A stretch of 64,000 bases of DNA. Source: Peribacillus simplex NBRC 15720 = DSM 1321. GTDB lineage: Bacteria; Bacillota; Bacilli; Bacillales; DSM-1321. Position numbers and translations under genes: made by a program. The notes under the pieces are model-generated. The model had not been told where the DNA came from. It ran no database searches and saw nothing but the letters and a program-made list of their open reading frames with translations. The first letter of the stretch is position 1; every line of letters starts with the position of its first letter. The stretch is from positions 1,899,501 through 1,963,500 of the forward strand of contig NZ_CP017704.1 of NCBI RefSeq assembly GCF_002243645.1. The letters are read 5' to 3'. Shown piece after piece: positions 17,195 through 35,292 of the stretch.

Positions 17195-17248
17195 AGGAGA
17201 AAAGAATTTGAGGGACTGGGGATTTCTCCTTAGTCTCTCTTTTCTTTG
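17195..17248 (+). terminator. Candidate terminator after gdh
   Basis: An imperfect stem pairs AAAGAATTTGAGGGACT with AGTCTCTCTTTTCTTT, and an alternative inner pairing is AGGAGAAA/TTTCTCCT. It ends in a T-rich tract about 50 bases past the gdh stop codon. Confidence 0.5.
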
Positions 17249-17306
17249 TCCTCACCATATATATGACCTTATTTGAATAGATTCTAATGAAAATGCGAGA
17301 TATTCC

Positions 17307-18659: not shown

Positions 18660-18675
18660 TCTAATCTCTCCTTCC

Positions 18676-19530: not shown

Positions 19531-19562
19531 TCATTCCACTCTCCCTCTGTATACTACCGCAA

Positions 19563-20213: not shown

Positions 20214-21243
20214 CCTTCGTCACCTCCTTCACTTTGACATTTTGATTCTTTATAAACTGTAATGCCCGATCAATTTCATCTTCATTACCTATTATTTCAA
20301 CAATTAAATTACCAAATGGGATGCCTTGTAACTCAGTAATATTGCCGAACAGAACGTTTATTTCCACATTAAACCTCTTCGCTGTTTTTGAAACGATAGG
20401 CTGCCCAGAGCTCGATCCCAAAAAATCAATTTTAAAAATCCGGCTGAAATAGGCATCCTCATTGAGCAATCCATAAACACTTGATGGCACTTCATCGCGA
20501 ACAACCGATCGAATGAAGTTACGAGTTGTTTCTGTTCGCGGACGGGCAAAAATATCGATCACATTTCCTGATTCAATCACGCTCCCATCCTCCATCACTG
20601 CAACCCGATTACAAATTTCTTTAATCACTTCCATTTCGTGCGTGATAATTAGAATGGTAATTTTATATTCTTCATTTATCCGTTTCAGCAGATTCAGGAT
20701 TGATTTTGTTGTTTGTGGATCCAATGCTGATGTTGCTTCATCACATAATAAAATCGAAGGGTTTGTGGCCAAAGCACGGGCAATCCCGACACGCTGCTTT
20801 TGTCCACCTGAAAGCTGATTTGGATAGTTCATTGCTTTGTCTTCTAGACCAACAAAGCGGAGAATCTCATTAACTCGTTCTTCAATCTCATTTTTCTTTT
20901 TTTTACTTAACAATAATGGCATCGCCACATTATCAAAGACTGTTTTGGAATTAAGTAAATTAAAATGCTGAAAAATCATGCCAATATTTTTCTTAGCTTC
21001 ACGCAAATCTTTTTCAGACATCTTGGCAAGATTTTTTCCTTCTACAATCACTTCACCTGAAGTAGGATATTCCAGTAGATTCACAGTTCGGATGAGTGTA
21101 CTTTTTCCGGCTCCACTAAAACCGATAACCCCGAATATATCCCCTTTTTCAACGGTTATATTAATCTCCTTTAACGCTTCAATTTTCTTCTCCCCGTCAT
21201 CAAAAACTTTTGAAACCCGACGAAATTCTATCAAAGTGGCCAC
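20155..21243 (-). CDS. metN: MetN-type ABC transporter ATP-binding protein with NIL domain
   Basis: 362 residues. Walker A GFSGAGKST is at about 41-49, signature [15 protein letters not shown], Walker B ILLCDEATSALDPQTT (the DEATSALDP variant is typical of MetN), then a C-terminal NIL ligand-binding domain (about 270-345) which in MetN proteins gives feedback inhibition by intracellular methionine. It lies between two MetQ genes in the operon and overlaps the permease gene. Whether the substrate is methionine or another thioether cannot be seen from the sequence; the flanking monooxygenases favour the latter. Confidence 0.9.
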   Translation of the reverse strand: MATLIEFRRVSKVFDDGEKKIEALKEINITVEKGDIFGVIGFSGAGKSTLIRTVNLLEYPTSGEVIVEGKNLAKMSEKDLREAKKNIGMIFQHFNLLNSKTVFDNVAMPLLLSKKKKNEIEERVNEILRFVGLEDKAMNYPNQLSGGQKQRVGIARALATNPSILLCDEATSALDPQTTKSILNLLKRINEEYKITILIITHEMEVIKEICNRVAVMEDGSVIESGNVIDIFARPRTETTRNFIRSVVRDEVPSSVYGLLNEDAYFSRIFKIDFLGSSSGQPIVSKTAKRFNVEINVLFGNITELQGIPFGNLIVEIIGNEDEIDRALQFIKNQNVKVKEVTKDGSKPRAHFKRLVGNAVHG

Positions 21244-21279
21244 CTCCTCTTTTTAATCAGCTTGGTATAGAAGCCACCC

Positions 21280-22113
21280 TTAAAACGCGGGCACGACGGC
21301 TCCTTCATATTGATCTAAAATAAATTCTTTGACCTTTTCCGTCGTTAATGCATTCGCAAGCTTTTGGATCGCTTTATCGTCCTTATTGTCTGGACGAGCA
21401 ACTAAAATGTTAACATATGGTGAATCTTTCCCTTCAATTATCAGTGCATCATCGAGAGGTTTTAACCCTCCTTCTAAAGCATAGTTTGTGTTAATGGCCG
21501 ATGCTTCCACATCATCTAGCGAGTGAACTAAAAGAGGGGAATCGACTGGAATGAATTCTATTTTTTTAGCATTTTTTGTAATGTCCTCAATCGTATAATC
21601 ACCTGACTTGGAAGCTTCCAACTCAATGATATTATTTGCCGCAAAAAGCTGTAACGATCGCGAAAAGTTTACTGGATCTTTCGGTACGGCTACTTTCGCT
21701 CCGTCTGACAATTCACCTATAGACTTAATTTTTTTGGAATAGACACCAAATGGTTCAATATGTACACCCTTCACATTAACCAAATTCAGACCACTATCTT
21801 TATTTACTTGCTCTAAGTAAGGGGTATGTTGAAAGAAGTTTGCATCCAATTCTTTGTCTGCTGTTTGTTGATTCGTTTGAATACCATCCGTAGAAATCAC
21901 TACATCCAGTTTCACGCCTTGTTTTTCTAAATCCGGTGCAATAAACTCTAAAATTTCTGCATGTGGTATTGAGGCTGCACTAATTTTCAAAGTCACTTCC
22001 TCATCCTTGTCTCCTTTACTCTCCGATGATGTTTGCTCATTACTTCCACAAGCACCCAATATCAGCAATACTACTGTTAAAACCGTTACGGACAGCCATT
22101 TAATTTTCTTCAA
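21280..22113 (-). CDS. NlpA/MetQ-family substrate-binding lipoprotein (first of two)
   Basis: 277 residues. Signal peptide and lipobox LILGACGSN, then a negatively charged linker and the NlpA domain: LKISAASIPHAEILEFIAPDLEKQGVKLDV, DANFFQHTPYLEQV, VAVPKDPVNFSRSLQLFA and NTNYALEGGLKP. The FFQHTPYL motif is the canonical MetQ ligand-site segment, more typical than in the second lipoprotein of this operon. It sits 88 bases downstream of the luciferase-like monooxygenase gene and 36 bases before metN. The gene ends early after EGAVVPAF, as other MetQ proteins do. Confidence 0.88.
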   Translation of the reverse strand: MKKIKWLSVTVLTVVLLILGACGSNEQTSSESKGDKDEEVTLKISAASIPHAEILEFIAPDLEKQGVKLDVVISTDGIQTNQQTADKELDANFFQHTPYLEQVNKDSGLNLVNVKGVHIEPFGVYSKKIKSIGELSDGAKVAVPKDPVNFSRSLQLFAANNIIELEASKSGDYTIEDITKNAKKIEFIPVDSPLLVHSLDDVEASAINTNYALEGGLKPLDDALIIEGKDSPYVNILVARPDNKDDKAIQKLANALTTEKVKEFILDQYEGAVVPAF

Positions 22114-22201
22114 TGTTTCTCGCTCCTTTTTTTATCCTTTTATATTGGAATAACAAATATTTATCAGCTGCTTCATGCCCTCTGGATCTTTTCTTTTCCT
22201 T

Positions 22202-23206
22202 CTATATGATAGTCTCTTCCCCTAAGAGAAGCGGACTCAACAACTGAAAGGATTGGATCCGTTCTGCTTCTCTTCGAAGCGGTGTATGCAAAATAAATTC
22301 ATCCACTTGAAAAACTTTCTGAAGTTCCTTTAAAATCCCGTTAACATATCCTGGAGTCCCAGCAATAACACTTGCGGTCTGCTCTTCTATTTCGTAAGCT
22401 TCACCAGCCTGCTTCTCAAATGACTCAGCCTGCTCACGTGATTGAACTGTCAGCGTCCGTCCACTTTGTAGATGAACTTTAAACAGTTTGTGTTCGCTTG
22501 CCAGCTCCTCTGCTTTTTGCTGGGTAGGAGCTGCCACAACCGCTACTGATACGATAAAGCGACCTTCTGGGTACTTGCTTCGGTAAGCAGAAGACGCTTC
22601 ATACAGCATGGTATCATCACTATTAATAAATCTGGCGAATACAAAATCCATTCCGAGGTTAGCGGCTAGTTGAGCGCTGTCTGAACTTGCACCTAGCAGA
22701 AAGGTTTCTGGCTTTTCAGGAGGTATCGGTGTTGCTTGAATACCAGAGAGCAAGTGATCATCATCGATTGAATTTTCAATTATCTTTTGCAATAAGGATG
22801 CACGTTCCCCAAAATCTTTTCCATCATTCACAGTTCCAAATTGTAACGCCTTTGTTGATAAAGGAAATCCACCTGGTGCTTTACCAATGCCAAGATCTAC
22901 CCTGCCCGGGGCAAGAGTGGATAAAACATGAAAATTTTCAGCGACTTTATAAGGACTGTAATGCTGAAGCATGACACCTCCCGAACCTACACGAATGGAT
23001 GTGGTTATCGATAATAAATAAGAAATTAATACTTCTGGTGAAGATCCAGCAACTTGTTCCATATGATGATGTTCCGATACCCAAAAACGGCTATATCCCC
23101 ATTCTTCAGCTTTTTGAGCTAGGTTTACGGTTTGCTTAAGTGCATCAACTGCCGAATTCCCAGGAAAAATGGGGCTTTGATCTAATATTCCAAGCTTAAA
23201 ACTCAT
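22202..23206 (-). CDS. Luciferase-like (LLM class) flavin monooxygenase, YtmO-like, paralogue B
   Basis: 334 residues. SFKLGILDQSPIFPG at the start, SRFWVSEHHHMEQVAGSSPEVLISYL and VGSGGVMLQHYSPYKVAENFHVLSTLAPGRVDLGIGKAPGG are diagnostic of the MsnO/YtmO branch of the luciferase-like family. It is clearly a paralogue of the protein at 30806-31828; most conserved blocks are nearly identical. It opens the Met-type importer operon behind a promoter that matches, element for element, the one before the paralogue. Probable role: FMN-dependent oxidation in organosulfur breakdown. RBS GGAGAGAAAGTCAT precedes the ATG. Confidence 0.85.
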   Translation of the reverse strand: MSFKLGILDQSPIFPGNSAVDALKQTVNLAQKAEEWGYSRFWVSEHHHMEQVAGSSPEVLISYLLSITTSIRVGSGGVMLQHYSPYKVAENFHVLSTLAPGRVDLGIGKAPGGFPLSTKALQFGTVNDGKDFGERASLLQKIIENSIDDDHLLSGIQATPIPPEKPETFLLGASSDSAQLAANLGMDFVFARFINSDDTMLYEASSAYRSKYPEGRFIVSVAVVAAPTQQKAEELASEHKLFKVHLQSGRTLTVQSREQAESFEKQAGEAYEIEEQTASVIAGTPGYVNGILKELQKVFQVDEFILHTPLRREAERIQSFQLLSPLLLGEETII

Positions 23207-23276
23207 ATGACTTTCTCTCCAATCATTAATACCGAGTTAACAAATCGAATTAGTTGTTTTAATGTAATTGAAATTC

Positions 23277-23358
23277 ATCCTAACATTGTAAACAAGCACT
23301 TGACAACACCTTATTTGATAGAAAAATTTATTTAATTGATAAAAAAATTCTATCAATT
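23277..23358 (-). promoter_or_regulatory. LysR-type promoter of the LLM-B/Met importer operon
   Basis: On the minus strand, in order: palindrome AATTGATA-N9-TATCAATT (23334-23358), half-site CTATCAA (23315-23321), -35 TTGTCA (23301-23306), 18 bp, -10 TAGGAT (23277-23282). Palindrome plus a proximal half-site abutting -35 is the usual recognition-site and activation-site layout of LysR regulators. Spacings equal those of the promoter at 31886-31966. The ATG lies about 65 bases downstream of the start region. Confidence 0.75.
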
Positions 23359-23658
23359 GCTTATGAATTTGGAATGCCTTTGCCTAATAATTAACCAAGC
23401 TCCCGCCTATCATGGTTTGAGATCTATTCTTCTTACCGCAATCAGAATAGGATTCATCAATGAGAGGAAGAGAAAAGGAGAGAGAAGTCTATGAAAAGCT
23501 GGAATGAAAGAATGAAGAGTGGCTATGTATGGTAGGTAAAATGGGGGGAATGTTCGCATCATGACTATGCTTGAAATCAAGTTGGAACGAAGCCTTTGGA
23601 ATTATAACAACAAAGGTGCTAGGCACGAAATCGTGTCTGGCACCTTTGTCAAATATGT
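23359..23658. other. Operon boundary, 300 bases without a convincing gene
   Basis: Between the LysR-type promoter and the deacylase stop codon I see no convincing gene. A 14-codon frame with a good ribosome binding site (23491-23535, MKSWNERMKSGYVW) is too short to call. The end near the deacylase gene carries the hairpin at 23611-23648. Confidence 0.5.
23611..23648. repeat. Near-perfect 38-base palindromic hairpin at an operon end
   Basis: CAAAGGTGC and GCACCTTTG form the outer 9-bp arms; the inner arms AGGCACGA and TCGTGTCT pair with one G-U, leaving a 2-base loop. It lies 11 bases from the deacylase stop codon and can act as terminator or transcript-stabilising hairpin for that operon. 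The compact palindromic core with GGTGC/GCACC resembles dispersed intergenic hairpins of Bacillus genomes, but copy number cannot be judged here. Confidence 0.8.
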
Positions 23659-24801
23659 TCACCACTTACCATGGTTAGATAATAAATCCTTGGCACTTTC
23701 AGATAAAAAATGAGCGGCTTTAATAATGGATTTTTCATCAACAGTAAAAGCTGGATGATGCCAGTCTTCGTTTCCGTTTGTACCAAAAAAGGCAAAGGTA
23801 CCGGGGATATGTTGTAGGTAATAAGCGAAATCTTCACCACCCATTGAAGGTTCTGGATGGATTACATGCAATGATTGTTGCCGAGCAGACAAGCGGGCCA
23901 TCTCGGTGACTGCCGGATGATTAAGAAGCGCGGGGGGCCCAGGAAACCAACCAATCGCAGCTTCCAGTGAAAAAGCAGCTGCAATATGATTCACAATTGA
24001 ATAAAACTTTTCTTTTACTTCTTCGCGTATCTCAGAATTAAAGGTTCGAATCGTTCCTTCCAATATGACGTCGCCCGGAATTACATTCCAAGTGTTTCCG
24101 CCTGTTATTCTCGTGACACTCACCACAGCACTATCTAATGGGGATACATTCCGGCTGACGATAGTTTGAAGAGCGGTAATAAGCTGAGCCGCTGCCGCTA
24201 TTGGATCTTTTCCGTTTTGAGGGATGGCCGCGTGGCTCCCCTTCCCTTGAAGGACAATATGAAAACGGTCCACTGCCGCCATTAACGGACCTTCTTTTAT
24301 CCCAATGGTGCCGACAGGCAAATTGGGTTTATTGTGCAGACCAATTACAGCCGCTACATCGTCAATTTGACCATCTTTTATCACATGCTCCGCTCCGCCA
24401 CCTAATTCTTCTGCGGGTTGAAAAAGCAATCGCACTGTCCCGCACAACTCTGATTGATATTCTTTTAAAAGGTAGGCAGCTCCTATTGCAGCTGCCGTAT
24501 GAAAATCATGGCCGCACGCATGCATCACTCCTTTTACTTTCGAAGCAAACGGAAGCCCAGTTTGTTCCTCAATCGGAAGAGCATCGATATCCGCCCTTAT
24601 GGCTACTGTCGGTCCGGGTTTGCCACCCTTTATATCTGCAAAAACACCTGTTTTCAATCCTGTATTTCGTATTTCAATGCCCTCTTCCTCGAGCCAATTT
24701 TTAATTGATTTTGTCGTTTCAAATTCTTCATTTGATAACTCCGGATATTGATGTAAATGGCGCCTTATCGATATTAAGCGCTTTTCCAGCTCTCGACTCA
24801 T
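23659..24801 (-). CDS. M20-family amidohydrolase/deacetylase (YxeP/YtnL-like)
   Basis: 380 residues from the ATG at 24801, which follows AAGGAGGCGTCTGT; a longer frame from 24837 is untenable because it overlaps the upstream gene without a ribosome binding site. This is the exact length of B. subtilis YxeP. M20 metal-site segments are visible: RADIDALPIEEQTG, MHACGHDFHTAAAIGAA, LFQPAEELGGGAEHVI and a C-terminal GGEDFAYYLQ...HHPAF. Such enzymes remove acyl groups from N-acyl amino acids. In the B. subtilis yxe/ytm pathways the homologues deacetylate N-acetylated S-(2-succino)cysteine derivatives. It is the last gene of the long sulfur operon. Confidence 0.85.
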   Translation of the reverse strand: MSRELEKRLISIRRHLHQYPELSNEEFETTKSIKNWLEEEGIEIRNTGLKTGVFADIKGGKPGPTVAIRADIDALPIEEQTGLPFASKVKGVMHACGHDFHTAAAIGAAYLLKEYQSELCGTVRLLFQPAEELGGGAEHVIKDGQIDDVAAVIGLHNKPNLPVGTIGIKEGPLMAAVDRFHIVLQGKGSHAAIPQNGKDPIAAAAQLITALQTIVSRNVSPLDSAVVSVTRITGGNTWNVIPGDVILEGTIRTFNSEIREEVKEKFYSIVNHIAAAFSLEAAIGWFPGPPALLNHPAVTEMARLSARQQSLHVIHPEPSMGGEDFAYYLQHIPGTFAFFGTNGNEDWHHPAFTVDEKSIIKAAHFLSESAKDLLSNHGKW

Positions 24802-24815
24802 ACAGACGCCTCCTT

Positions 24816-25325
24816 CTATAAATCTAAGCGATAGCATTTTACTAAAATATCATGATTTTGAAATTCTTTCGTTCGATCCCGTTTAAAGCCAAACCATTCG
24901 TATAGTTTTATGGCTTTATGCATCTTATCAGTAGAATGTAAATACAAACTGGACGCACCTTGCGATTTTGCATAAATTACACTAGCTTTTAATAATTCCT
25001 GTGCGATACCGCGTCCCCTTGATTCGGGATGAACGGCCAACAACCGAATGATTGGTGAAAGGATCCCAAGTTCCGGCTTTTCATATGCTTTTTCAGATGA
25101 CTGAAAAAGCTGTAATGTACCAAGGATATCCTGATTGCATTTTGCAACCAACACCTTATCAACATGTGGATTATCCACCGAGGATTCAATATTTTTTAAA
25201 TATCCTTCCCAAGCTTCCGGGTTCGAATATTCATGTTCATATTGTTGATAACTTTCTACCAATAAGCGGCGCACCGTCTCTTTATCTTCTTCAATCAATT
25301 CATCGACCACGATTGTATTAATCAT
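24816..25325 (-). CDS. GNAT-family N-acetyltransferase (operon copy 2)
   Basis: 169 residues. Acetyl-CoA motif A is LLAVHPESRGRGIAQELLKASVIYAKSQGA (RGRGIA pyrophosphate loop); motif B follows in LYLHSTDKMHKAIKLYEWFGFKRDR. It lies between the ABC ATPase gene and the deacylase gene, 14 bases before the latter's start. A second GNAT gene is at the other end of the transporter cluster. In the related B. subtilis operons an acetyltransferase N-acetylates the imported thioether before monooxygenation and deacetylation, which suggests the same acetylate-oxidise-deacetylate logic here. Which GNAT acts on which substrate is unknown. Confidence 0.82.
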   Translation of the reverse strand: MINTIVVDELIEEDKETVRRLLVESYQQYEHEYSNPEAWEGYLKNIESSVDNPHVDKVLVAKCNQDILGTLQLFQSSEKAYEKPELGILSPIIRLLAVHPESRGRGIAQELLKASVIYAKSQGASSLYLHSTDKMHKAIKLYEWFGFKRDRTKEFQNHDILVKCYRLDL

Positions 25326-25348
25326 ACGTCCTCCTTTGGCCCCTTCCT

Positions 25349-26119
25349 TTAATTGGCCCTTTCTTCTAAAACCGATAAGGAAAAATCTCTTGATATCCGG
25401 TTTAAAAATTGTCTTGTTCGCTCTTCCTTTGGAGCATTGAAAATCTCTAATGGTGCCCCTTCTTCTACAATGACCCCGCCATCCATGAAAAGAACGCGAT
25501 CCGATATCTCTTTAGCAAAACTCATTTCATGGGTTACAATCACCATCGTGATGCCTTCCTGTGCAATTGCTTTTATGACAGAAAGCACCTCCCCAACCAA
25601 CTCAGGGTCGAGTGCCGACGTTGGCTCGTCAAATAGAATGACCTCCGGATTTAAAGCAAGTGCCCTGGCAATTCCAACACGTTGCTGTTGACCTCCTGAC
25701 AATTGCGAAGGGAAATAGTTATGCTTATCTCCCAAACCTACTTTTTCCAATAACAGCTTGCTTTCCCGAATTGCATCAGCTTTCTTATATTTTTTTGTAA
25801 CAATTAAACCTTCCATTACATTTTCCAAAACAGTTTTATGAGCAAATAAGTTATAATGCTGAAAAACCATCGCCGATTGTCTTCTAAGAGACAAGATTTC
25901 CCTTTTAGTCGCCTTCTTAGACTTCACCTGTATATCTCCCACTTGAACGATTCCCTCATCTGGTTTCTCCAGAAAATTCAAGCATCTAAGCAGGGTGGTT
26001 TTCCCAGATCCACTTGGTCCAAGAATGGTAACTACTTCTCCCTTGCCTATTTTCAAATTAATTCCTTTTAAAACTGGCTGCTGGTTAAATGATTTTTTTA
26101 TATCTTTTAAATAAATCAT
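25349..26119 (-). CDS. Amino-acid/cystine ABC transporter ATP-binding protein (TcyN-like)
   Basis: 256 residues. Walker A GPSGSGKT is near 33-40, signature [16 protein letters not shown], Walker [18 protein letters not shown] and switch [10 protein letters not shown]. It overlaps the permease stop by 4 bases (ATGA), with its ribosome binding site inside the permease 3' end. With the two permeases and the lipoprotein it makes a complete importer of the TcyJKLMN type (L-cystine and S-substituted cysteines). The cluster with GNAT, glutaredoxin, monooxygenase and M20 genes mirrors the ytmI-tcyJKLMN-ytmO-ytnI-J-L operon of B. subtilis. Confidence 0.9.
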
Positions 26120-26826
26120 TGTACTCCTCCTCGATTATAGGCAGTGGCCTTTTTCTCAATTAAAAACGAAAGCCCCTCTGCTATGATTGTGAGACCCCAA
26201 TAAATTAAACCAGCAGCGATAAAAGACTCCAAAAATTTCAAATTGGTGGATGCAACAATATTGGCTGCTCCAGTCATTTCTTTTTGCGATACAATGAATG
26301 CAATGGATGACGTATGCAGAAATCCAATGAAAATATTCGTGAAATTCGGGATGGACTGAGCAATGGCCTGTGGCAAAACAATTCGCGTCATGGCTTGAAA
26401 CGAATTCATACCCACGGAATAGGCTGCCTCAATTTGGCCATTGGAGACACTGATAATTCCCGATCTGAATATTTCAGATAAATAAGCACCCGCACTCAAC
26501 GATAAGGCGGTTAAGACAAATAAAATAATCGGAATGGAATTAGATTGTATACCCAAATCAAATTTCTTAGAAATTTGATCGATTAATAATGGAAAACCGA
26601 AATAAATGAGCATTATGTGCATGATAATCGGTGTTCCTCTAAAGAAGGAAACATAACCATTTGCAACTCTACATAGAAATTTCACTTTATATATCCTAAT
26701 CAAGGCAACAGCGAGACCGATAATAAAACCTGCAAGAAGAGGAAGCATCGTTAAGATAAGTGTGATCGGAAGTGCTTTAATAATCTCCTTAAAAGCAGTC
26801 CAAATAAATAGAATATCAATCGTCAA
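26116..26826 (-). CDS. Amino-acid ABC transporter permease (TcyM-like)
   Basis: 236 residues, five transmembrane helices, HisM/GlnP domain. [21 protein letters not shown] and the EAA-loop sequence [33 protein letters not shown] are typical. The start is a TTG at 26826, preceded by GGGAGGAGGG, 20 bases after the first permease gene. It pairs with the other permease as a heterodimer, as TcyL and TcyM do in B. subtilis. Substrate assignment (cystine or S-substituted cysteine) rests on operon context only. Confidence 0.88.
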
Positions 26827-26846
26827 GTCCTTCCCTCCTCCCTTTG

Positions 26847-27554
26847 TTATCCAGTAACAGACACATCAACAGTTTGATGCCGATTAATGCGGTTTTCATA
26901 AAGTCTGAATATTTTCTCAAACAATAGCACGACTGCATAATAGATAACAGCTAATGAGAGATAGACTTCGAGAGCATGTGCAGTTGCAGCAATTAATGTC
27001 TCTCCCCTACCCATCATATCCATTACGCCGATGGTAAAGGCAAGTGAGGTATCCTTCAAGGATCCGATAATAGAGTTTGCGATATTCGGAAAAGCAATCC
27101 GTATTGCCTGAGGAAGCACAATTCGAAAAAAACTTTGACTATTATTCATACCAACAGAATAGGCTGCTTCCGTTTGCCCATAATCGACAGCCTTAATCGC
27201 TCCTCGGAATATTTCTGCGAAATGCGCCCCATTACTTAATGCATAAGTAATAATGACAAAATACAGAGCATCCATTCTTGAAATATCAATATTAATGAAT
27301 AAAAGGATTGCAGGCAGTCCATAAAAAACTAGAAATAATTGTATTAAAATAGGCGTTCCCCGAATGAATGAAATATACAAAATGACAAATTGATTCAAAA
27401 CAGGGATACGAAATAATCTCAGGATGGCTGCCGCTATCCCGATGACCATTCCTAATAAAACGGATGCTGCCAGAATTTGCAATGTTACTCCAAGATAATA
27501 TATTAACGTCGGAATGAAATCGACGATTAATGAAGGATCAAATGCTTTCCCCAT
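26847..27554 (-). CDS. Amino-acid ABC transporter permease (TcyL-like)
   Basis: 235 residues, five transmembrane helices. YISFIRGTPILIQLFLVFYGLPAIL and [33 protein letters not shown] (EAA loop) define the HisM/GlnP class. The C-terminus carries a short soluble tail (RLYENRINRHQTVDVSVTG). It is the first of two tandem permease genes behind the binding-protein gene and closely resembles the second, indicating ancient duplication. It acts in the membrane as half of the import channel. Confidence 0.88.
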   Translation of the reverse strand: MGKAFDPSLIVDFIPTLIYYLGVTLQILAASVLLGMVIGIAAAILRLFRIPVLNQFVILYISFIRGTPILIQLFLVFYGLPAILLFINIDISRMDALYFVIITYALSNGAHFAEIFRGAIKAVDYGQTEAAYSVGMNNSQSFFRIVLPQAIRIAFPNIANSIIGSLKDTSLAFTIGVMDMMGRGETLIAATAHALEVYLSLAVIYYAVVLLFEKIFRLYENRINRHQTVDVSVTG

Positions 27555-27586
27555 GCTTTAGCACCTCCGCGCTTACTACTATCTAA

Positions 27587-28411
27587 TTAAAATCCTACTG
27601 AATAGTCTGCACCCAGCCACTTTTTACTTAGTTCGCTAACTACCCCATCTTTTTTCAGTTCCACAAGTGCTTCATCAATTCTCTTCTGTAAAGGCGTTTC
27701 GTCTTTTCTTAGCAAAAAGTATACTTTTGAATTAAGAAGTGGCTCACCCACAACCTTTTGCTGGGCATCTGCTTGTTTATTTAAGAAGTCGACTGCAAAT
27801 GGTGTAGTAATGGTAGCATCCGCCCGACCAGTTTTGATTTGATTCTTCGTATCATCTACGCCTTGGCCAGAATAGACAATTTCAATACCGGCATTATTTT
27901 CTTTATTATACTTTTCAAGAAATACAGCAGAATTGCTCGTTGCACTCACTATCGCTTTTTTTCCTTTTAGATCTTTAATGGAGTGAATATCATTGTTGTC
28001 CTGATGAACTGTAACTTGAAGGGGAAAGACATTATATGGTTCTTTATTAAATAGAAATTTTTCTTTTCGTTCATCATTCACCTCCATTTGGTGAGCAACA
28101 AAATCTATTTTGTTCGTTTCTAAACTTAATAATAGATTAGAAAATTCCATCGTTTTAAATTCAAATTCATATTCAGGCAGCTTTTCATCGATTTGCCGAA
28201 CCAACTCGACATCATAACCTGTCAGCTTACCATTACTATCCAAAAAGCAAATATTCGGGAATTGCGTCCCTGTTCCGACAATGATTTTCTGAACTTTTTT
28301 ATTTTTTGAATCTCCAGAACTTGATTTAGCAGTACTCGTTGTTTCTTTCGAAGAGCAAGCTCCCAAAAAAGTAAGTAGCAGTGCCATAACAATTAATAAT
28401 GTTTTTTTCAT
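27587..28411 (-). CDS. Amino-acid-binding lipoprotein of the Tcy-type importer
   Basis: 274 residues. Signal and lipobox LLTFLGACSS (Cys19), Ser/Lys-rich linker, then the SBP_bac_3 fold: KIIVGTGTQFPNICFLDSNGKLTGYDVELVRQIDEKLPEYEFEF, LETNKIDFVAHQMEVNDERKEKFLFNKEPYN and GRADATITTPFAVDFL. These match TcyJ/TcyK cystine-binding proteins; B. subtilis has two such genes, here only one is present. It is anchored outside the membrane and feeds the TcyL/M-like permeases encoded next. The odd spot is NICFLDSNG, where most relatives have P(F/Y)(S/E)F. Confidence 0.87.
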   Translation of the reverse strand: MKKTLLIVMALLLTFLGACSSKETTSTAKSSSGDSKNKKVQKIIVGTGTQFPNICFLDSNGKLTGYDVELVRQIDEKLPEYEFEFKTMEFSNLLLSLETNKIDFVAHQMEVNDERKEKFLFNKEPYNVFPLQVTVHQDNNDIHSIKDLKGKKAIVSATSNSAVFLEKYNKENNAGIEIVYSGQGVDDTKNQIKTGRADATITTPFAVDFLNKQADAQQKVVGEPLLNSKVYFLLRKDETPLQKRIDEALVELKKDGVVSELSKKWLGADYSVGF

Positions 28412-28431
28412 CTCAAATTCCCCCGACGTTT

Positions 28432-28965
28432 TTAATTACTAACAATTGGTTCTTTATTTTCAATAATGCGATACAGCGTTTCATCTAGAATTTTACGAAG
28501 ATACACAATTTTTTCTCCATCGTGATCTCGTTCAGCAAAAATCTCATAGCCTCTTCTTTCATAAATGGAAACAAGCCAAGGATGACGATCAGCTGTCGCC
28601 AAATAGACGGCCGGCGCTTTCACCTGTTCCCGAAGTGCATTTTCTTCCACCCAGGTTAACAAAGTCGAGCCTATACCTTTTTGTTTGTATAGGGGGTCGA
28701 CTGCAAACCACCAAATGAATGGGTACGGACTGAAATGATCAGGATCATTCCATGGATGACGAACTGTCACAGTGGAAACAATTTGACCCTCCTGTTCTAA
28801 AACATAAGTGAGATTCCGCCTAATATTATTCATCACTAGCTGCAAATCAGCTGTCGCAGCCAGAAAGTTAATATTCAATTCTCTAATTGGTTCATAAGCC
28901 CGAAGTGTGACGTTTAGCACTTCTGGAGCATCCTTTACAGTAGCAAGACGGATTAGCTGTGTCAT
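28432..28965 (-). CDS. GNAT-family N-acetyltransferase (YtmI-like)
   Basis: 177 residues. Motif A is WWFAVDPLYKQKGIGSTLLTWVEENA (QKGIG), followed by VYLATADRHPWLVSIYERRGYEIF. The overall layout and its place directly before the binding-protein gene match YtmI (SnaA), which N-acetylates S-(2-succino)cysteine in B. subtilis. The 136-base gap to the upstream glutaredoxin gene is the largest within the operon and could hold an internal promoter, but I could not define one. RBS GGGGAGTTAATC precedes the ATG. Confidence 0.83.
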   Translation of the reverse strand: MTQLIRLATVKDAPEVLNVTLRAYEPIRELNINFLAATADLQLVMNNIRRNLTYVLEQEGQIVSTVTVRHPWNDPDHFSPYPFIWWFAVDPLYKQKGIGSTLLTWVEENALREQVKAPAVYLATADRHPWLVSIYERRGYEIFAERDHDGEKIVYLRKILDETLYRIIENKEPIVSN

Positions 28966-29101
28966 GATTAACTCCCCATTTCTATAACATATTATTTACA
29001 CAAGAATAGTCGGATTTATATCTGCAATTCCCCATTAAATCACTCGCTCTAGCTCTATTTCATAATGTTCTTAGTCATCTTTTTAAGTCCGTTAAATTTT
29101 G

Positions 29102-29362
29102 TTATTGTAAGCGTTCGAGTACTTTTTCAAGATAAGGTATGCCAATTTCCGTAACACTCTCATATACGTTGCCTCTCCCAATTTCAATAATAGGCACATA
29201 CCGAACACCATATTTGATTTCTAAAATATCTCGCCGTTCATCATGATTGGTAACATCCACCGTTTGATAAGCGATTTCCTTTTCTTTTAAGTATTGTTTA
29301 ACTTCTTCGCAATAGTGACAACCTTGTTTTGACCAAACGACGACAGATAACGCTTCTCCCAT
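29102..29362 (-). CDS. Glutaredoxin-like protein (YtnI-like)
   Basis: 86 residues with a glutaredoxin fold: VVWSKQGCHYCEEVKQYLKEKEIAYQTVDV carries the dithiol motif Cys-His-Tyr-Cys near residues 15-18, and YVPIIEIG supplies the cis-proline. It starts 34 bases after the monooxygenase gene. B. subtilis has the equivalent small glutaredoxin gene ytnI at the same place in the ytm operon. Likely role: reducing a mixed disulfide or providing electrons during thioether breakdown. Its exact partner is not established. Confidence 0.85.
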   Translation of the reverse strand: MGEALSVVVWSKQGCHYCEEVKQYLKEKEIAYQTVDVTNHDERRDILEIKYGVRYVPIIEIGRGNVYESVTEIGIPYLEKVLERLQ

Positions 29363-29396
29363 TTCTTATTCCTCCTTCAATTTTTAAAATAATACT

Positions 29397-30731
29397 TCAA
29401 TGATTAATCTTTTCTTTCGTATAACGATTTTCTGGGAATGGAAGCCCCAAGTTGCCTCTTAATGTTTCTGCTTCATATTCAGTACGATATATTCCCCTTT
29501 TTTGAAGGATAGGAATCACATAAGATACAAAGTCACTTAAAGCATTGGGAACACTTGAAGCAAAAATAAATCCATCCGCACCCTTCTCTTCGAACCATTG
29601 CTGAATCAAATTCGCCACTTTCTCGGGAGTTCCAATAAAAGAAGTCCGGGGTGTAGCCTCTATAAGTGCTACTTGACGAAGCGTTAACTGTTTCTCCTTG
29701 GCTTCCTGTTTAATTCGATCAGTCGTACTTCGGAAACTGTTTTTTCCGATGTCTCCGAGATCTGGGAAAGGTGCATCCAGTTCATATTGGGTAAAATCAT
29801 GATGATCGAAATATCGTCCCAAATAGTCAAGCGCCTTATCTATAGAAACCAGGTTAGCGAGTTCTTGGTATTTGTGCTCAGCCTCTTCCTCAGTTGCACC
29901 AATGATTGGCGCGATACCTGGCAGAATAACAATTTCAGCAGGTTTTCTCCCGAATGCAATAGCCCTGTTTTTTACATCTTGATAAAAAATCTTGGCATCT
30001 TCCAAAGTTGGTTGACCTGTAAAGATTGCATCCGCTTCTTTAGCCGCAAGATTTTTTCCAGCTTCTGATGAACCTGCTTGAAAAACGACAGGTCTCCCCT
30101 GTTTAGATCTAGCAATGTTGAGTGGTCCTTGCACGGAGAAAAATTCTCCTTTATGTTTTAATTGATGCATTTTAGAAGGCTCAAAAAACTCACCGGACTC
30201 TTTATCCCGAGTAAACGCGTCATCCTCCCATGAATCCCAAAGCCCTTTGGTAACTTTTATATATTCTGATGCTATCCGATAGCGTTTGGCATGATCAGGG
30301 TGTTCTTCAATTGTTTTGTTATAGTTCAAGGCCGTACTCTCAAGAGGGGTAGTAACAAGGTTCCATCCGCCACGACCTTGACTAATGTGATCAAGTGAAG
30401 CAAATTGCCGGGCTACAGTAAATGGCTCACTGTATGAGGTGGAAACTGTTCCGACAAGCCCTATTCTTGATGTGAAAGCAGCGAGTGCGGATAAAATGGT
30501 AAGTGGTTCAAATCGATTTAAAAAATGCGGAATTGACTTCTCATTGATAAACAAACCGTCAGCAATGAAAAGTAAATCGAACTTTCCCTCTTCAGCCTTC
30601 TGGGCCTGCTCCTTATAAAATTCAAGACTAACACTGGCATCTGCTTGAATATCAGGATGTCTCCAACCAGATATACTCCCTCCAACTCCATGAATAAGCG
30701 CTCCAAATTTCAACTTTCTCTGCTCAGACAT
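29397..30731 (-). CDS. NtaA/DszA-family FMN-dependent monooxygenase (YtnJ-like)
   Basis: 444 residues from the ATG at 30731, behind AAAGGAGGAGTATTG; the longer frame to 30782 lacks a ribosome binding site. Conserved blocks: [58 protein letters not shown] and the [21 protein letters not shown] substrate/FMN segment. It is a paralogue of the protein at 17307-18659 and corresponds in position to ytnJ. The family cleaves C-S or C-N bonds with FMNH2 and O2. It is 74 bases downstream of the LLM gene, second in the operon. Confidence 0.86.
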
Positions 30732-30805
30732 CAATACTCCTCCTTTAATTAATCGGTATTTAGCTTTGCTGACATCTAGCATCTTCCCTATTTACTGAAG
30801 ACTTT

Positions 30806-31828
30806 TTAATTTTGGCTCGTAACGTGTTTCTGTTCAGATAAGGCTAATTGAAGTGGACTCAACAATCGGAATGATCTTAACCTTTCTGCTTCCTTTAAAA
30901 TCGGCGAATGTAGGATAAACTCATCTACCCCGTACTTTTCTTGTAAATTTGATAAGACTTCTTTTACATAAGAGGGAGTTCCAGCAATAATATTGGAATC
31001 CTGTTCTTCAATTTCATAAGACTCCCCAGATTGCTTCCCAAATAACTCTGCTTGCACCAGTGTTTGGACCGTAACAGAACGACCGCTTTTAAGATGAACT
31101 TTCACAATCTTCTGATCACCTGTTAACTGTTCTGCTTCCTGTTGTGAAGGAGCAGCAATCACTGAAACCGATACCTTAAAGCTCCCAGTTGGAAAGATAC
31201 TTTTGTAAATGCGTGAAGCATCTTCGAGTACAGTCTCATTACTATTGATAAATCGGGCAAATACATAAGCTATACCAAGATCGGCTGCTAGCCTGGCACT
31301 GTCAGCACTTGCACCAAGCAGAAACATCTTTGGCTTTTTTGAAGGGAGTGGTGTCGCTTGAATGCCTGCAAGCGGGTGAGTTTCATTAACTGAATTTTCG
31401 ATTATTTTTTGCAAGAAAGATAACCGCTCTTCGAAATCTTTTCCATCATTCACAGTTCCAAACTGTAGTGCCTTCGTTGATAAGGGGAGACCACCTGGTG
31501 CCTTTCCGATGCCAAGGTCTACCCTGCCTGGCGAAAGATTTGATAACACGTGAAAGTTTTCCGCCACTTTATATGGACTATAATGCTGAAGCATAACACC
31601 TCCGGACCCTACCCGAATCGATTTTGTTTGGGCTAATAAATAAGAAATCAATACTTCCGGGGAGGACCCCGCTAACTGTTCGGCATGATGATGTTCCGAT
31701 ACCCAGAAACGAGTATAACCCCACTCTTCTGCATGTCTAGCCAGATTAATGGTTTGCTGTAGTGCATCAAATGCTGAAGCTCCTGGAAATATCGGGCTCT
31801 GGTCTAAAATGCCAAGCTTATAACTCAT
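30806..31828 (-). CDS. Luciferase-like (LLM class) flavin monooxygenase, YtmO-like, paralogue A
   Basis: 340 residues. SYKLGILDQSPIFPG, TRFWVSEHHHAEQLAGSSPEVLISYLL and VGSGGVMLQHYSPYKVAENFHVLSNLSPGRVDLGIGKAPGG mark the YtmO/MsnO group. First gene of the long operon, behind GCGGAGGAGAGAAT and a LysR-type promoter whose operator overlaps the stop codon of the upstream lysR gene. The paralogue at 22202-23206 heads the second operon. The two proteins differ mostly in their middle and C-terminal parts, so they may act on different thioethers or sulfonates. Confidence 0.86.
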   Translation of the reverse strand: MSYKLGILDQSPIFPGASAFDALQQTINLARHAEEWGYTRFWVSEHHHAEQLAGSSPEVLISYLLAQTKSIRVGSGGVMLQHYSPYKVAENFHVLSNLSPGRVDLGIGKAPGGLPLSTKALQFGTVNDGKDFEERLSFLQKIIENSVNETHPLAGIQATPLPSKKPKMFLLGASADSARLAADLGIAYVFARFINSNETVLEDASRIYKSIFPTGSFKVSVSVIAAPSQQEAEQLTGDQKIVKVHLKSGRSVTVQTLVQAELFGKQSGESYEIEEQDSNIIAGTPSYVKEVLSNLQEKYGVDEFILHSPILKEAERLRSFRLLSPLQLALSEQKHVTSQN

Positions 31829-31885
31829 ATTCTCTCCTCCGCTTTAATTCAAAGTTTACTTATGCGAATAATTATATTTTGACTT

Positions 31886-31966
31886 ATCCTATCACCTAAA
31901 ACATGCTAATGGCAATGGTTTTACTAATAGAAAAAAATATTGTATTGATAGAAAATATCTATCAAT
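31886..31966 (-). promoter_or_regulatory. LysR-type promoter of the LLM-A/Tcy operon
   Basis: On the minus strand: palindrome ATTGATAG-N7-CTATCAAT (31944-31966), half-site CTATTAG (31924-31930), -35 TTGCCA (31910-31915), 18 bp, -10 TAGGAT (31886-31891). The palindrome overlaps the last codons and stop of the lysR gene. Spacings match the promoter at 23277-23358 exactly: half-site 14 bp and distal palindrome arm 49 bp from the -35 reference point. Confidence 0.78.
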
Positions 31967-32873
31967 TCGATTGTATCTGTAATTGCTGATGGTTTTTCTC
32001 AAATTTCCGAATTGATAAAAGAATGTCTTTCCATAGTAAGGGTGATTCCAACCCGTGATTTAAATGCGTTAGATAGATATGCTGCTTTATCTTGATTAAA
32101 TGTGACACATCCACTTCAACCAGAGTGCCCTGTTCCAACTCTTTTTTAATACATAAGTACGGTAAAAATCCGATACAGCTTCTGCTAAGAATTAACGACT
32201 TCGCCACTTCCAGGTGATCAACCTGAAATTCAATGCGCGGCTCTACATTAGATACTTCAAAAATTTTATGAACGTGGTTCCAGTCAAACGCACCGCACTC
32301 AAAAAATACCAACGGCTCCATTGCTAATTCCTGTACTGTTAGCTCAGTTTGAAGTTGAAATGGATGTCCTGGATACACGACTAAACGAATTGAATTATCA
32401 AGGGTTTTGTAATTTTGCAGACCACTATGTGTAACATCCTTCATAAAGGCTATATCAACCTGTTTCTGAAGCAATTTTTCCATTAATGCATCATTTGTTG
32501 CTGAAATAAATTTAAAGCGTAAATTGGGGTTTTCCTTTTTCCATAGAGGAAGAGCATATGGAATAAAGTATTGCGATGTAATGATATTAGCCCCTATTGT
32601 TATTTCCTCCAGTTCGCTTCCTGTTTTCAATTGCTTTTTCCCCTGGTGAAAGGTACGAATAATTTGATCAGCAAATGGAATGAAGGCTTTCCCTTTTTCA
32701 GTTAAAATAATCCCTCTCCCTTGCCTCTCAAATAGTACTGAATCGAGTTCACTCTCAAGCGTCTTAATTCTTGCGGAAACCGTCGGTTGTGATAAAAACA
32801 TTGCCTCTGCGGCTTTATGAAAACTATTAAGGTGAACAACATACATAAAAGCTTCAATATGATCAATATTCAT
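31962..32873 (-). CDS. LysR-family transcriptional regulator (YtlI/CysL-like)
   Basis: 303 residues from the ATG at 32873 (MNIDHIEAFMYVV), which has AAAGGAG 8 bases upstream and gives the standard LysR start; the longer frame to 32951 merely reads through a leader hairpin. The helix-turn-helix is SFHKAAEAMFLSQPTVSARIKTLE; the C-terminal two-lobed effector domain runs from about 90. It sits directly upstream of the Tcy-type sulfur operon in the same direction, not divergently, and its 3' end overlaps the operator of that operon. In B. subtilis the LysR protein YtlI activates ytmI. It is the best candidate to bind both TTGATAG-type promoters; the effector is probably a sulfur metabolite. Confidence 0.87.
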   Translation of the reverse strand: MNIDHIEAFMYVVHLNSFHKAAEAMFLSQPTVSARIKTLESELDSVLFERQGRGIILTEKGKAFIPFADQIIRTFHQGKKQLKTGSELEEITIGANIITSQYFIPYALPLWKKENPNLRFKFISATNDALMEKLLQKQVDIAFMKDVTHSGLQNYKTLDNSIRLVVYPGHPFQLQTELTVQELAMEPLVFFECGAFDWNHVHKIFEVSNVEPRIEFQVDHLEVAKSLILSRSCIGFLPYLCIKKELEQGTLVEVDVSHLIKIKQHIYLTHLNHGLESPLLWKDILLSIRKFEKNHQQLQIQSN

Positions 32874-33368
32874 CTTGCCAACTCCTTTTTCCAAAATGAA
32901 CGCCAAAAGCTCCTGTTCGCTTATCGCGTTCAGGAGCTTTTGGTTGTCCAATCAGCTCATCCTCTTATAATAATTCTTTCTCCGATTTTAATCTTATAAA
33001 ACCAATAAGTAAAGTGTAATTTAATTAACTGAACAACCAACAAGTCACGATATATTTATTACGATTTCATACAACATGATATTCAAGGAACGTAATACTA
33101 TTTATGCAGATGAAATTTTAAGGATTCTAAGTAAATAAAACTAATAATTTCATTCTCTTTCTGCCTGTTTTTCAGTCCTAAGGGTGTATCTATTTTACGA
33201 ATTTGTATTGTCCATAAATTTTGCATAGTTTATTTAAATTGTTTATCCCAATGGACTTGGCCGTTAAAATCCATCCTGTCTACGTTATATTTTTTTCTCC
33301 TTATAAAAAAGAAAAGAAAGGTCATCCTAATGGAGTAATTCCAATAATGACATAAGGAGAGAAACTAC
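32874..33368. other. Intergenic region between lysR and the small helical protein gene
   Basis: Apart from the lysR leader hairpin at 32903-32943, this roughly 495-base AT-rich stretch holds the lysR promoter region and the upstream region of the gene at 33369. I see no gene in it and no convincing sporulation-type promoter. Confidence 0.4.
32903..32943 (-). promoter_or_regulatory. Strong hairpin in the leader of the LysR gene
   Basis: A perfect 13-bp stem CCAAAAGCTCCTG/CAGGAGCTTTTGG (32903-32915 with 32931-32943) with a 15-base loop that can form three more pairs (CGC/GCG). It lies about 20 bases before the ribosome binding site of lysR and has no following T-run on the minus strand. It may affect lysR translation or transcript stability, be an LysR operator, or be a relic of an older terminator. 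Confidence 0.65.
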
Positions 33369-33581
33369 ATGCCTCAACAACAAATTGATATCAATCAATT
33401 AAATCAAGCAAAAGCAAACGTTACCCTTACGCAAACCTTACTTTCACAAGCAATTGAAAAATCTTCCTCTGATCCAACTTTGGCACAAGAAGCCATTAAA
33501 CAAGCTGCTCAAGAAATCGCACAAGCCCAATCTTCCGTAAATCAGGTTTACAGTGCAGTGCAAACGCCGCAAGCCGAATGA
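33369..33581 (+). CDS. Small hydrophilic helical protein, unknown function
   Basis: 70 residues behind a good ribosome binding site (AAGGAGAGAAACTAC) and followed by a terminator, so it is a real gene. The product is rich in Gln (about one fifth), Ala and Ser with heptad-like helical spacing (LNQAKANVTLTQTLLSQAIEK, QEAIKQAAQEIAQAQSSVNQVYSA) and has no Cys, Trp or signal peptide. A soluble helical bundle or coiled coil is likely. The Gln/Ala/Ser composition resembles small spore-associated proteins, but I do not recognise the family. Confidence 0.75.
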   Translation: MPQQQIDINQLNQAKANVTLTQTLLSQAIEKSSSDPTLAQEAIKQAAQEIAQAQSSVNQVYSAVQTPQAE

Positions 33582-33604
33582 TTTTGGGGAAATGAAAATA
33601 AAAG

Positions 33605-33637
33605 AGGCCTATATCCCACTTGAGGAATAGGCCTTTT
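33605..33637. terminator. Terminator between the small protein and CotQ-like genes
   Basis: AGGCCTAT (33605-33612) pairs with ATAGGCCT (33627-33634), flanked by AAA and TTT runs, so it can work in both directions for the two convergent genes. Confidence 0.8.
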
Positions 33638-33676
33638 AATAACGAATGTTTTTCGTGCATCCAAGCTTTTTCAACC

Positions 33677-35020
33677 TCACTTATTTAATGGAGGTATGCT
33701 TTGAGGGAACTTAAACGTATTGTATGGATCATACCTCGTTTTCACTTCTCGAAGCCGTTTGAAATTTTCCCCATAGTAGGCGGTTGGCCAATCTTTAATG
33801 AGAGTATCCGGCCAATTTACGTAGTCACCGGTAGTAAATGGTGATAAAGCGTGTTTCAGGTCCTTGATCCACCGAATATTTTGCCGTTCTTCTTCTGGAT
33901 TGGTCCATGTAGCCTGATACTCCTGGGCGATGATGGCATCGCGATAATAAAAAGCTGTCTCCTTTGGATCTTTAAGACCCGCCACTCCTCCTAGAGATTG
34001 GTGCCAAATGGCTGCATTTTCATTTGGAGCATTTCCTAAAAAATGTTTCATGGTCATGATTGCTTGCTGTGGAAAAGCTTTTTCAATGAAAGATCCTGAC
34101 CTCTTTCGATGAGCCGGTTGATTTCCACTTGGATAATCAAAGAATCGCACAGCTTCAATGTATGGGACTTCCTTTATCATGACATTTATTGGTGAACCAG
34201 TTTTTGTCAAAGGCTTTAAAAGCTGCTTCAATCTTTGTGACGTTCCAACAAATTCACCTTTAGCAATAATTTCGTTTGCTTCCTTTGCCTTGAATTCTAT
34301 TTCTGAAGTTAAGCATTCATCAGCCTGAGGGGCCCAATCCTGCCACGCTTCAAACACCGCTTCGAAATCTTCCCACCCCCATGTGACGGAGAAAACGGAT
34401 ACCCTTGATACGGGGTGTACCCTGAAAGTAAGAGAAGTGATAATCCCGAAGTTTCCACCTCCTCCACCGCAGCTTGCCCAAAATAAATCACTATTAATTT
34501 TCCTGTTTGCTTTAATGAGTTTGGCGCCCCTCTTTCCACACGCCCTTACCATTTCTATTTCAAGAAGATTGTCACAAGTAAGTCCAAAGCGCCTCGTTAA
34601 CATACCTATTCCACCGCCGAGCGTAAGACCTACAAGACCAACACTGCTTTCGGTCCCTGCCGGAATCGTCGTGCCATAGTTCCATAGCTTATTATATACT
34701 CGGCCTAAATCAGCTCCGGCTTCAATTTTTGCGATCATTTTTTCACGATTGACCTTGATATTGTACATTTCACTAATATCAATGATTAGACCGCCATTCA
34801 CTAATGAAAAATTTTCATAACTATGCCTGCCGCTCCTAACCCGGAAAGGTGTATGATTTTCCCGGGCCCACTTCAGTGAATTCAATACATCATTGGAATT
34901 TTGACAAAACACAATGACCTTTGGGAATTTAGAAAAACTTAAGTTATTATTTACCCTGGCTTGCTCATACTCAGCATCATTTGGTGTAACGATACGCCCG
35001 GTAAGCTTTGTTCTTTCCAA
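33677..35020 (-). CDS. FAD-linked oxidase, berberine-bridge type (CotQ/YvdP-like)
   Basis: 447 residues when started at the TTG at 35020, which has GGAAGGGG 7 bases upstream; this equals the length of B. subtilis CotQ (YvdP). A longer frame to 35089 has no ribosome binding site. PCMH-type FAD domain: VIVFCQNSNDVLNSLKWARENHTPFRVRSGRHSYEN, PAGTESSVGLVGLTLGGGIGMLTRRFGLTCDNL, CGGGGGNFGIIT; a BBE domain ends YYGENFKRLREVKTRYDPYNTFKFPQSI. The His for covalent FAD attachment is kept but the usual RSGGHS reads RSGRHS. Relatives oxidise alcohols or sugars; B. subtilis CotQ is a spore-coat protein. No sporulation promoter was identified. Confidence 0.83.
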   Translation of the reverse strand: MERTKLTGRIVTPNDAEYEQARVNNNLSFSKFPKVIVFCQNSNDVLNSLKWARENHTPFRVRSGRHSYENFSLVNGGLIIDISEMYNIKVNREKMIAKIEAGADLGRVYNKLWNYGTTIPAGTESSVGLVGLTLGGGIGMLTRRFGLTCDNLLEIEMVRACGKRGAKLIKANRKINSDLFWASCGGGGGNFGIITSLTFRVHPVSRVSVFSVTWGWEDFEAVFEAWQDWAPQADECLTSEIEFKAKEANEIIAKGEFVGTSQRLKQLLKPLTKTGSPINVMIKEVPYIEAVRFFDYPSGNQPAHRKRSGSFIEKAFPQQAIMTMKHFLGNAPNENAAIWHQSLGGVAGLKDPKETAFYYRDAIIAQEYQATWTNPEEERQNIRWIKDLKHALSPFTTGDYVNWPDTLIKDWPTAYYGENFKRLREVKTRYDPYNTFKFPQSIPPLNK

Positions 35021-35148
35021 AATATAACCCCTTCCTCGGGTTAAGATGTTACATCCTATGAAAAAACCTGGCTGGAAGACACATTCCATAAGCTTTTTGA
35101 TTCATTCACCCTGCTGGCCCTCCCTTGTTATGGGGGCAAATTAGCTTT

Positions 35149-35222
35149 ACTCGTGAATTCAACTACTTTACTCGTGAATTTCGCAGAATTACTCGTGAAT
35201 TCCACAGTTTTACTCGTGAACT
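35149..35222. repeat. Intergenic tandem array with exact 21-bp period
   Basis: ACTCGTGAA occurs at 35149, 35170, 35191 and 35212, exactly 21 bases apart, each followed by TTC or CTC and a variable 9-10 base spacer. The array lies between the terminator of the amino-acid permease and the start region of the CotQ-like gene. It is in no recognised coding frame. Confidence 0.9.
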
Positions 35223-35248
35223 CCAACAATTGATCCACAATGACAAAA

Positions 35249-35279
35249 AAAGCCCTTCTCGAATTAAGAGAAGGGCTTT
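35249..35279 (-). terminator. Rho-independent terminator of the amino-acid permease gene
   Basis: AAAGCCCTTCTC (35249-35260) and GAGAAGGGCTTT (35268-35279) form a perfect 12-bp stem with a 7-base loop, followed on the minus strand by TTTTTTGTC. It lies 14 bases after the stop codon. Confidence 0.9.
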
Positions 35280-35292
35280 CTAATAGAATTTC

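Follow-up and report, generated by a model that had tools for sequence, protein, structure and literature searches.

A shared promoter architecture before two putative sulfur-salvage operons of Peribacillus simplex and the LysR-type protein that probably controls them

The stretch of DNA analysed here, referred to below as the window, comprises 64,000 nucleotides of Peribacillus simplex NBRC 15720 = DSM 1321 (NZ_CP017704.1, positions 1,899,501 to 1,963,500). On its minus strand it carries two operons, A and B, preceded by promoter blocks of one design, and a gene for a LysR-type regulator (31962-32873) directly upstream of operon B. The overall picture is that of a small, rigid LysR regulon for organosulfur salvage, and the interpretation offered by the first-pass annotation of this sequence was mostly right. 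It is highly probable that the LysR protein is the dedicated regulator, most likely an activator, of both operons, which would recover sulfur from S-alkylated cysteine and related compounds, and that it acts through a composite operator common to the two. One LysR dimer would occupy the distal dyad, the recognition site, and a second dimer the half-site lying one 21-bp step nearer to RNA polymerase, the activation site; LysR would then assist the polymerase there, where the promoter combines a -35 close to the consensus with a spacer of 18 bp and an extended -10. Operon B (CmoO, CmoJ, two acetyltransferases, a cystine-type transporter, and a deacetylase) would be switched together with operon A (a second CmoO-type enzyme, a MetQNIQ-type importer, and an NtaA-family monooxygenase), presumably in response to a sulfur-related effector of LysR, and lysR itself may be under attenuation in its leader.

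Promoter blocks A and B

Blocks A (23277-23357) and B (31886-31966) align without a gap over 81 bp, 56 of which are identical, and in 60 dinucleotide shuffles of both intergenic regions the best ungapped 81-mer match had 38.3 identities on average and 44 at most; the observation of the first-pass annotation is confirmed. In the ungapped flanks only 14/40 positions upstream and 18/59 downstream are identical. Block A consists of ATTGATAG (23357-23350), TATCAAT (23341-23335), CTATCA (23321-23316), TTGTCA (23306-23301), and TAGGAT (23282-23277), and block B of ATTGATAG (31966-31959), TATCAAT (31950-31944), CTATTA (31930-31925), TTGCCA (31915-31910), and TAGGAT (31891-31886). Upon rechecking of the coordinates every spacing between the elements proved equal in A and B, in agreement with the same design and spacing first claimed for the two sites. 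The description "base for base" is apt for the spacing, but not for the sequence. Similarly, the distances of 14 bp and 49 bp given originally are indeed equal at both sites, but their values hinge on the reference base: measured start to start, the -35 is separated by 15 bp from the half-site and by 51 bp from ATTGATAG.

Operator A (23335-23357) is an imperfect dyad, ATTGATAG-N8-TATCAAT, with the sequence TTATCAAT, and operator B (31944-31966) is the dyad ATTGATAG-N7-CTATCAAT with LysR-type T-N11-A spacing. Both sites carry a dyad, as had been proposed, but the palindrome is perfect at B only, and because of the imperfection at A a strict search of the window for TTGATAG-N5-11-CTATCAA matched B alone and missed A. 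The proximal half-site is CTATCA in operator A (23316-23321) and CTATTA in operator B (31925-31930), the latter at a distance of 21 bp (two turns of the helix) from the right-hand arm of the dyad. Promoter A (23277-23306) combines TTGTCA, 18 bp, and the extended -10 TGTTAGGAT, and promoter B (31886-31915) TTGCCA, 18 bp, and the extended -10 TGATAGGAT. In both, the -35 is near the consensus and TAGGAT differs from the -10 consensus at two positions; the TG of the extended -10 (23285-23284 in A, 31894-31893 in B) was absent from the first description. The TGA stop codon of lysR (31964-31962) lies, as had been noted, inside operator B. It occupies the same position of the distal arm at 16 of 16 loci from the same genus and at least three other lineages, a count that leaves aside L012-L015, L021, and the Neobacillus-type loci.

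The architecture is conserved in relatives. A pattern script tolerating a few bases of slack in both spacings yielded, in addition to A and B, 25 distinct sites, none of which departs from the spacing of these two. The alignment and the profile built from it comprise 23 of the 27 listed sites (A, B, L011, and L040 were left out), opposite-strand matches L016 and L080 having been dropped and sites with a 17-bp spacer standing outside the profile. Invariant in all 23 are A3, T5, A7-A9, and A11 of the distal arm, T8 and A20, which form the T-N11-A of LysR boxes, and also A31, the half-site core TAT (40-42), the TTG of the -35, and TGnTAGGAT. No other centre in the block scores as well as that of the dyad (0.76 of the positions complementary; next 0.61, mean 0.31), and among offsets of 16-27 the block is most similar to itself at 21 bp (0.55, followed by 0.50 at 17 bp), so that the third half-site falls two turns of the helix away from the right arm. 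Lower scores, of 60.8-63 bits, were obtained for four sites of the same genus outside the profile (G011, G014, G018, and G034); the two of these whose spacer could be read, L013 and L015, both have one of 17 bp, so the 18-bp spacing is not absolute.

BenM, CbnR, and CysB are LysR-type regulators with recognition and activation sites. The system described here is like theirs in the helix-turn-helix (HTH) and effector domains, the T-N11-A dyad, and the proximal half-site on the same helical face; it differs in that lysR and its target are co-directional and the operator includes the stop codon of the regulator gene.

Distribution of the promoter and its regulator

The host genome of the window is a single contig of 5.65 Mb. 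A search of all of it with the composite A/B pattern, up to three mismatches being allowed, returned A and B only (reversed control, zero), and a profile built exclusively from relatives gave 78 bits for B, 69 bits for A, and 18 bits for the third-best place, 150 of 8061 first-look candidates having been scored. Genome-wide searching of the kind that the first-pass annotation had recommended revealed no crowd of unrelated matches, and two strong sites with nothing else close agree well with its claim of a small regulon. The survey was extended to 121 genomes, namely the host and relatives in its genus, family, and order. Twenty-nine sites above 60 bits were found in 19 genomes, and the same 19 hold an orthologue of the LysR protein at E < 1e-90, while none of the other 102 has a strong site (best 22.6 bits; Fisher p 1.4e-22 for co-occurrence, kinship uncorrected). 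The candidacy of the LysR protein encoded just upstream, proposed from the start, is supported in this way as a genetic association; such a link between LysR and both sites is not proof. The strong sites comprise 19 that adjoin lysR, 8 before the operon A monooxygenase, and 2 in G053.

Another regulator (CymR, CysL, or a further one) could act at the sites, with LysR merely travelling with the operon; according to the excerpted text of PMC9239247, analogous genes of B. subtilis and Listeria are also under CymR/CysK. A global regulator, however, would be expected to have left sites in LysR-less genomes, yet strong sites number 0/102 there, though 15 of these genomes hold MsnO8 relatives, and the dyad has the T-N11-A spacing of LysR-type transcriptional regulators (LTTRs); we consider this explanation improbable. 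As LTTRs can activate or repress, the LysR protein might also bind both sites and mainly repress, or switch between repression and activation with an effector. This appears very unlikely, as the sites lie wholly upstream of the -35, a layout of activators, and YtlI of the analogous B. subtilis operon, though not an orthologue, is an activator in the excerpt of PMC9239247.

The promoters could also be alike only through duplication of the monooxygenase gene together with its upstream region, in which case the regulator of the second copy may differ; the first-pass annotation had left this possibility out of consideration. The first genes of operons A and B indeed share about 72% identity at the protein level and, within a stretch of 300 nt, 81% at the DNA level, and both window sites stand before them. 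Moreover, the second site of Anoxybacillus caldiproteolyticus, upstream of a glutaredoxin-like/GNAT/M20/met cluster, is directly followed by an apparent remnant of a monooxygenase start, and duplication may have brought the site there; on the other side, it now stands before other genes. The flanks of A and B show 31-35% identity against 69% with zero indels in the 81-bp core, and in 8 of the 121 genomes the site on the lysR side and that of operon A are both retained. In G053 there are three sites, two of them about 850 kb from lysR: one lies directly before metQ-metN-metI-metQ-ntaA (named by similarity or from sequence) with no CmoO-type gene between, and the other (L132 5413-5951) before a truncated CmoO-like stretch followed by genes for an esterase and an oligopeptide-type ATP-binding cassette (ABC) importer. 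Because the G053 sites are unlinked to lysR and one of them precedes metQ without a CmoO-type gene, the comparison favours a regulon acting in trans over a relic of duplication, which appears very unlikely.

The number and strength of sites vary. Five loci, L070, L075, L076, L077, and L080 (three Neobacillus and two Bacillus sp.), have a weaker site of 38-43 bits directly behind lysR in addition to the full site, and L077 and L080 have a third one before cmoJ; Priestia endophytica (L078) has one site only, of 33 bits. Autoregulation of lysR through an upstream site was considered and rejected, since all matches above 33 bits at the 18 loci L063-L080 lie downstream of the lysR start (L079 lacks upstream DNA). 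At G008 (L134 about 3943-4317) a weak 27-bit site beside short CmoJ-like gene fragments looks like a decayed regulon promoter.

Operon A is not always in the regulon. In G009 and G029 its orthologue is preceded by an S-adenosylmethionine (SAM) riboswitch (96.6 and 94.2 bits; L135 6380-6487 and L136 5178-5285), and the profile scan of relatives detected no LysR site there. The LysR protein is present in G009, together with a site at the cmoO gene of that genome; no LysR orthologue occurs in G029. A search of positions 17000-36000 of the window returned no riboswitch at the Rfam gathering threshold, and hence no S-box leader before operon A. As the same genes are under different controls in close relatives, the LysR promoter is suggested to be a module.

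Several of these observations weigh against LysR control of both operons as proposed above. G009 has LysR, yet its operon A orthologue is siteless behind the SAM riboswitch. The 19 lysR-adjacent sites make up most of the 29 strong ones, so linkage and common descent account for part of the co-occurrence. The profile lacks independence, as 11 of the 19 genomes contributed training sites, of which several are all but identical with A or B, and the filters of the relatives scan were stricter, so that weak matches were lost. Finally, no support was found for the activation site being a complete dyad of its own: such a dyad is missing from the ten best dyad centres, only its right half is clear, as the 21-bp repeat, and the self-similarity at 21 bp is little above that at 17 bp.

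The operons and the lineage of the LysR protein

Operon B begins with the gene of an MsnO8-family luciferase-like monooxygenase (30806-31828; CmoO/YtmO-like, TIGR03558 above cut-off), followed by those of an NtaA/DmoA-family flavin mononucleotide (FMN) monooxygenase (29397-30782; CmoJ/YtnJ-like, TIGR03860 above cut-off) and, according to Pfam, a GNAT acetyltransferase (28432-28965; YtmI/SnaA-like), a 49% homologue of which adjoins a cystine-type transporter in L179. The subsequent open reading frames (ORFs) make up a cystine-type ABC transporter (25349-28411), with a binding protein recognised by library matches (27587-28411) and two permeases (26847-27554 and 26116-26826) and an ATPase (25349-26119) named from sequence. 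A second GNAT acetyltransferase (24816-25325) and an M20 amidohydrolase/deacetylase (23659-24837), both identified by library matches, complete the operon. Behind its last gene a 19-nt inverted repeat (23610-23649; 89% complementary, arms 2 nt apart) is likely to be a terminator separating the two operons. Operon A encodes a second MsnO8-family monooxygenase (22202-23206; family match), MetQ (21280-22113; library match), MetN (20155-21243), MetI (19563-20213), and a second MetQ-type protein (18676-19530), the last three named from sequence, and an NtaA/DmoA-family monooxygenase (17307-18659; library match). Three more MsnO8-family genes, all over the family cut-off, are present in the genome (G000:C1 50989-51969, 5291466-5292440, and 5292594-5293556); no profile match was listed near them down to 9 bits.

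The excerpted text of PMC10863075 describes CmoO and CmoJ as the B. subtilis enzymes by which N-acetylated S-alkylcysteine is oxidised and cleaved. For acetylation, the two flavin-dependent reactions, deacetylation, and import alike, operon B encodes proteins of matching families, and the window shares with the pathway described there two flavin monooxygenases of matching families, an acetyltransferase, a deacetylase, and an importer, and has in addition another CmoO-type enzyme, encoded in one operon with the genes of a methionine-type importer. By gene content the operons resemble S-alkylcysteine salvage, the CmoO, CmoJ, acetyltransferase, and deacetylase family matches being broad and none of them an equivalog call. 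None of the operon ORFs was recognisable as a dedicated flavin reductase, a check that did not extend to the rest of the genome.

The regulator has an HTH_1 domain (PF00126, 69.1 bits) and a LysR_substrate domain (PF03466, 107.4 bits), both above the Pfam cut-offs, and shows sequence similarity to the solved BenM, CatM, and CysB chains. Its 329-aa ORF opens at TTG 32951, overlapping the leader hairpin; the likely start is ATG 32873-32871, because the proteins of relatives begin with MNIDH or MNIDY. The closest LysR proteins among named genomes come mostly from Peribacillus. In a tree of 64 rows the window LysR falls into a clade of 41 (99/98), together with homologues of several families of Bacilli. 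At 26 of 27 class-level homologue loci (at two of the 26 through weak 32-33% matches only), against 0/11 of the more distant LysR loci, a gene of the cmo, GNAT, cystine-transporter, or NtaA type lies within about 1.5 kb.

YtlI of B. subtilis is, according to the excerpt of PMC9239247, the activator of an analogous operon, and YtlI/AscR with the ytmI operon is alike in having a LysR-type gene beside the operon that it controls, which codes for a GNAT protein, a cystine transporter, CmoO, and CmoJ. Orthology to YtlI/AscR, the first working idea, was ruled out by the tree and a reverse search. Three YtlI-type proteins, recognised by gene order in three genomes, form a separate clade (100/100) on a long stem of 2.07, and a YtlI-type query placed the window LysR at rank 15 of 16 genome matches, with 30% identity; the long-branch warnings of the tree concerned other rows, among them L181 beside the window clade. 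Both results point to a different LysR for the same kind of operon, and on phylogenetic grounds we regard the window protein as a lineage apart from YtlI. The YtlI gene is divergent from the ytmI-type operon, whereas lysR and both operons of the window all lie on the minus strand. This comparison was made through the region L179, picked by gene order, with B. subtilis itself outside it, and the profile found no site in that YtlI-type region (E up to 0.1). Nothing on the LysR regulator of the window was found in searches of open-licence papers.

The leader of lysR

A candidate lysR promoter, TTTACT-17 bp-TAAAAT (32985-33013), recognised by reading the sequence and conserved in relatives, is followed by a leader (32903-32956) in which the core hairpin GCUGAUUGGACAACCAAAAGC (32956-32936) overlaps a terminator-like hairpin (32943-32903) placed just before the start codon; the fold has a z-score of -5.74. 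The U-run of the window leader lies within the stem (CUUUUGG), so its terminator is weaker than those of relatives. Among 11 aligned leaders 14 pairs of the terminator hairpin are supported, three of them with two-sided changes. The consensus of the core is GCYGAUYGGwCAaCCRAArGC, and this 21-nt element, one mismatch being allowed, has 95 matches in 63 of 397 genomes of the order (no match to the reversed control among the rows listed). The inner pair, which the pattern leaves unspecified, is C-G or T-A in 91 of the 95, T-G in 3, and C-A in 1, and among 39 distinct sequences it is of the Watson-Crick type in 36 (Fisher p 1e-7, kinship uncorrected). By the criterion of the script the core overlaps a terminator in 29/31 cores at 30 loci, against 24/150 random positions in the same loci. 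The core matches at L256 and L257 lack a terminator and are probably due to chance; R2 matches of 33-41 bits, possibly generic terminators, were excluded from the leader count.

Across Bacillales the element precedes genes of sulfate/sulfonate uptake, alkanesulfonate monooxygenase, flavin reductase, and Rrf2 proteins. Ten of the following genes were compared with NCBIfam: four clear the curated cut-offs, three as sulfate-binding proteins and one as an alkanesulfonate monooxygenase, two belong to the Rrf2 family (CymR model below cut-off), two are ABC ATPases resembling, below cut-off, sulfonate/taurine ATPases, and two have no NCBIfam match; the last two resemble sulfite-exporter-type permeases. 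A flavin reductase gene follows one core (L221/L258), and the remaining genes after cores were named from sequence only, including that of an SsuA-like protein behind a second copy in the host genome itself (2514060, one mismatch). Hairpin/terminator leaders before sulfur genes were observed at L221, L244, L247, L248, L252, L255, L259, L262, L265, L268, and L271. According to the script, no ORF of at least 100 aa follows the core at L245, L249, L256, and L269, and at L242, L263, and L270 no evident sulfur gene is next in line. A family of small proteins (about 90-130 aa, with the motif NRGIYNTIDxWF; L075 11154-11528, L221 1617-2006, and L251 1758-2027), for which no Pfam family scored above cut-off, has its genes between lysR and cmoO in Neobacillus; in other places they follow the leader element. 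In the 13 of 30 leader loci searched, Rfam gave no match at the gathering threshold, and a lax search of the lysR leader produced two matches far below the gathering score.

The lysR leader is a candidate sulfur attenuator. Termination control of the B. subtilis sulphonate genes was reportedly the subject of work by van der Ploeg in 2001, to judge from its title. The two are alike in being of the terminator type, and the window-type leader precedes ssuB-like and ssuD genes as well as lysR. Tentatively, and with doubts slightly prevailing, the regulon may be viewed as the second tier of an undescribed sulfur circuit, in which the leader would represent a new riboswitch that senses sulfur, or else a target for some unknown antitermination protein.

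Beyond the first-pass annotation, the present analysis adds the lineage apart from YtlI, the alternation with the SAM riboswitch, the fusion of operator and lysR stop codon at all 16 loci compared, and the attenuator-like leader. Peribacillus and its relatives would possess a second, non-orthologous LysR lineage for S-alkylcysteine and cystine salvage, where YtlI might be assumed, and the methionine-importer operon stands behind this promoter in some species and behind a SAM riboswitch in close relatives. The rigid 81-bp signature may be used for mapping the regulon in other genomes, and the leader upstream of lysR provides a testable candidate for sulfur sensing at the RNA level in Bacillales.

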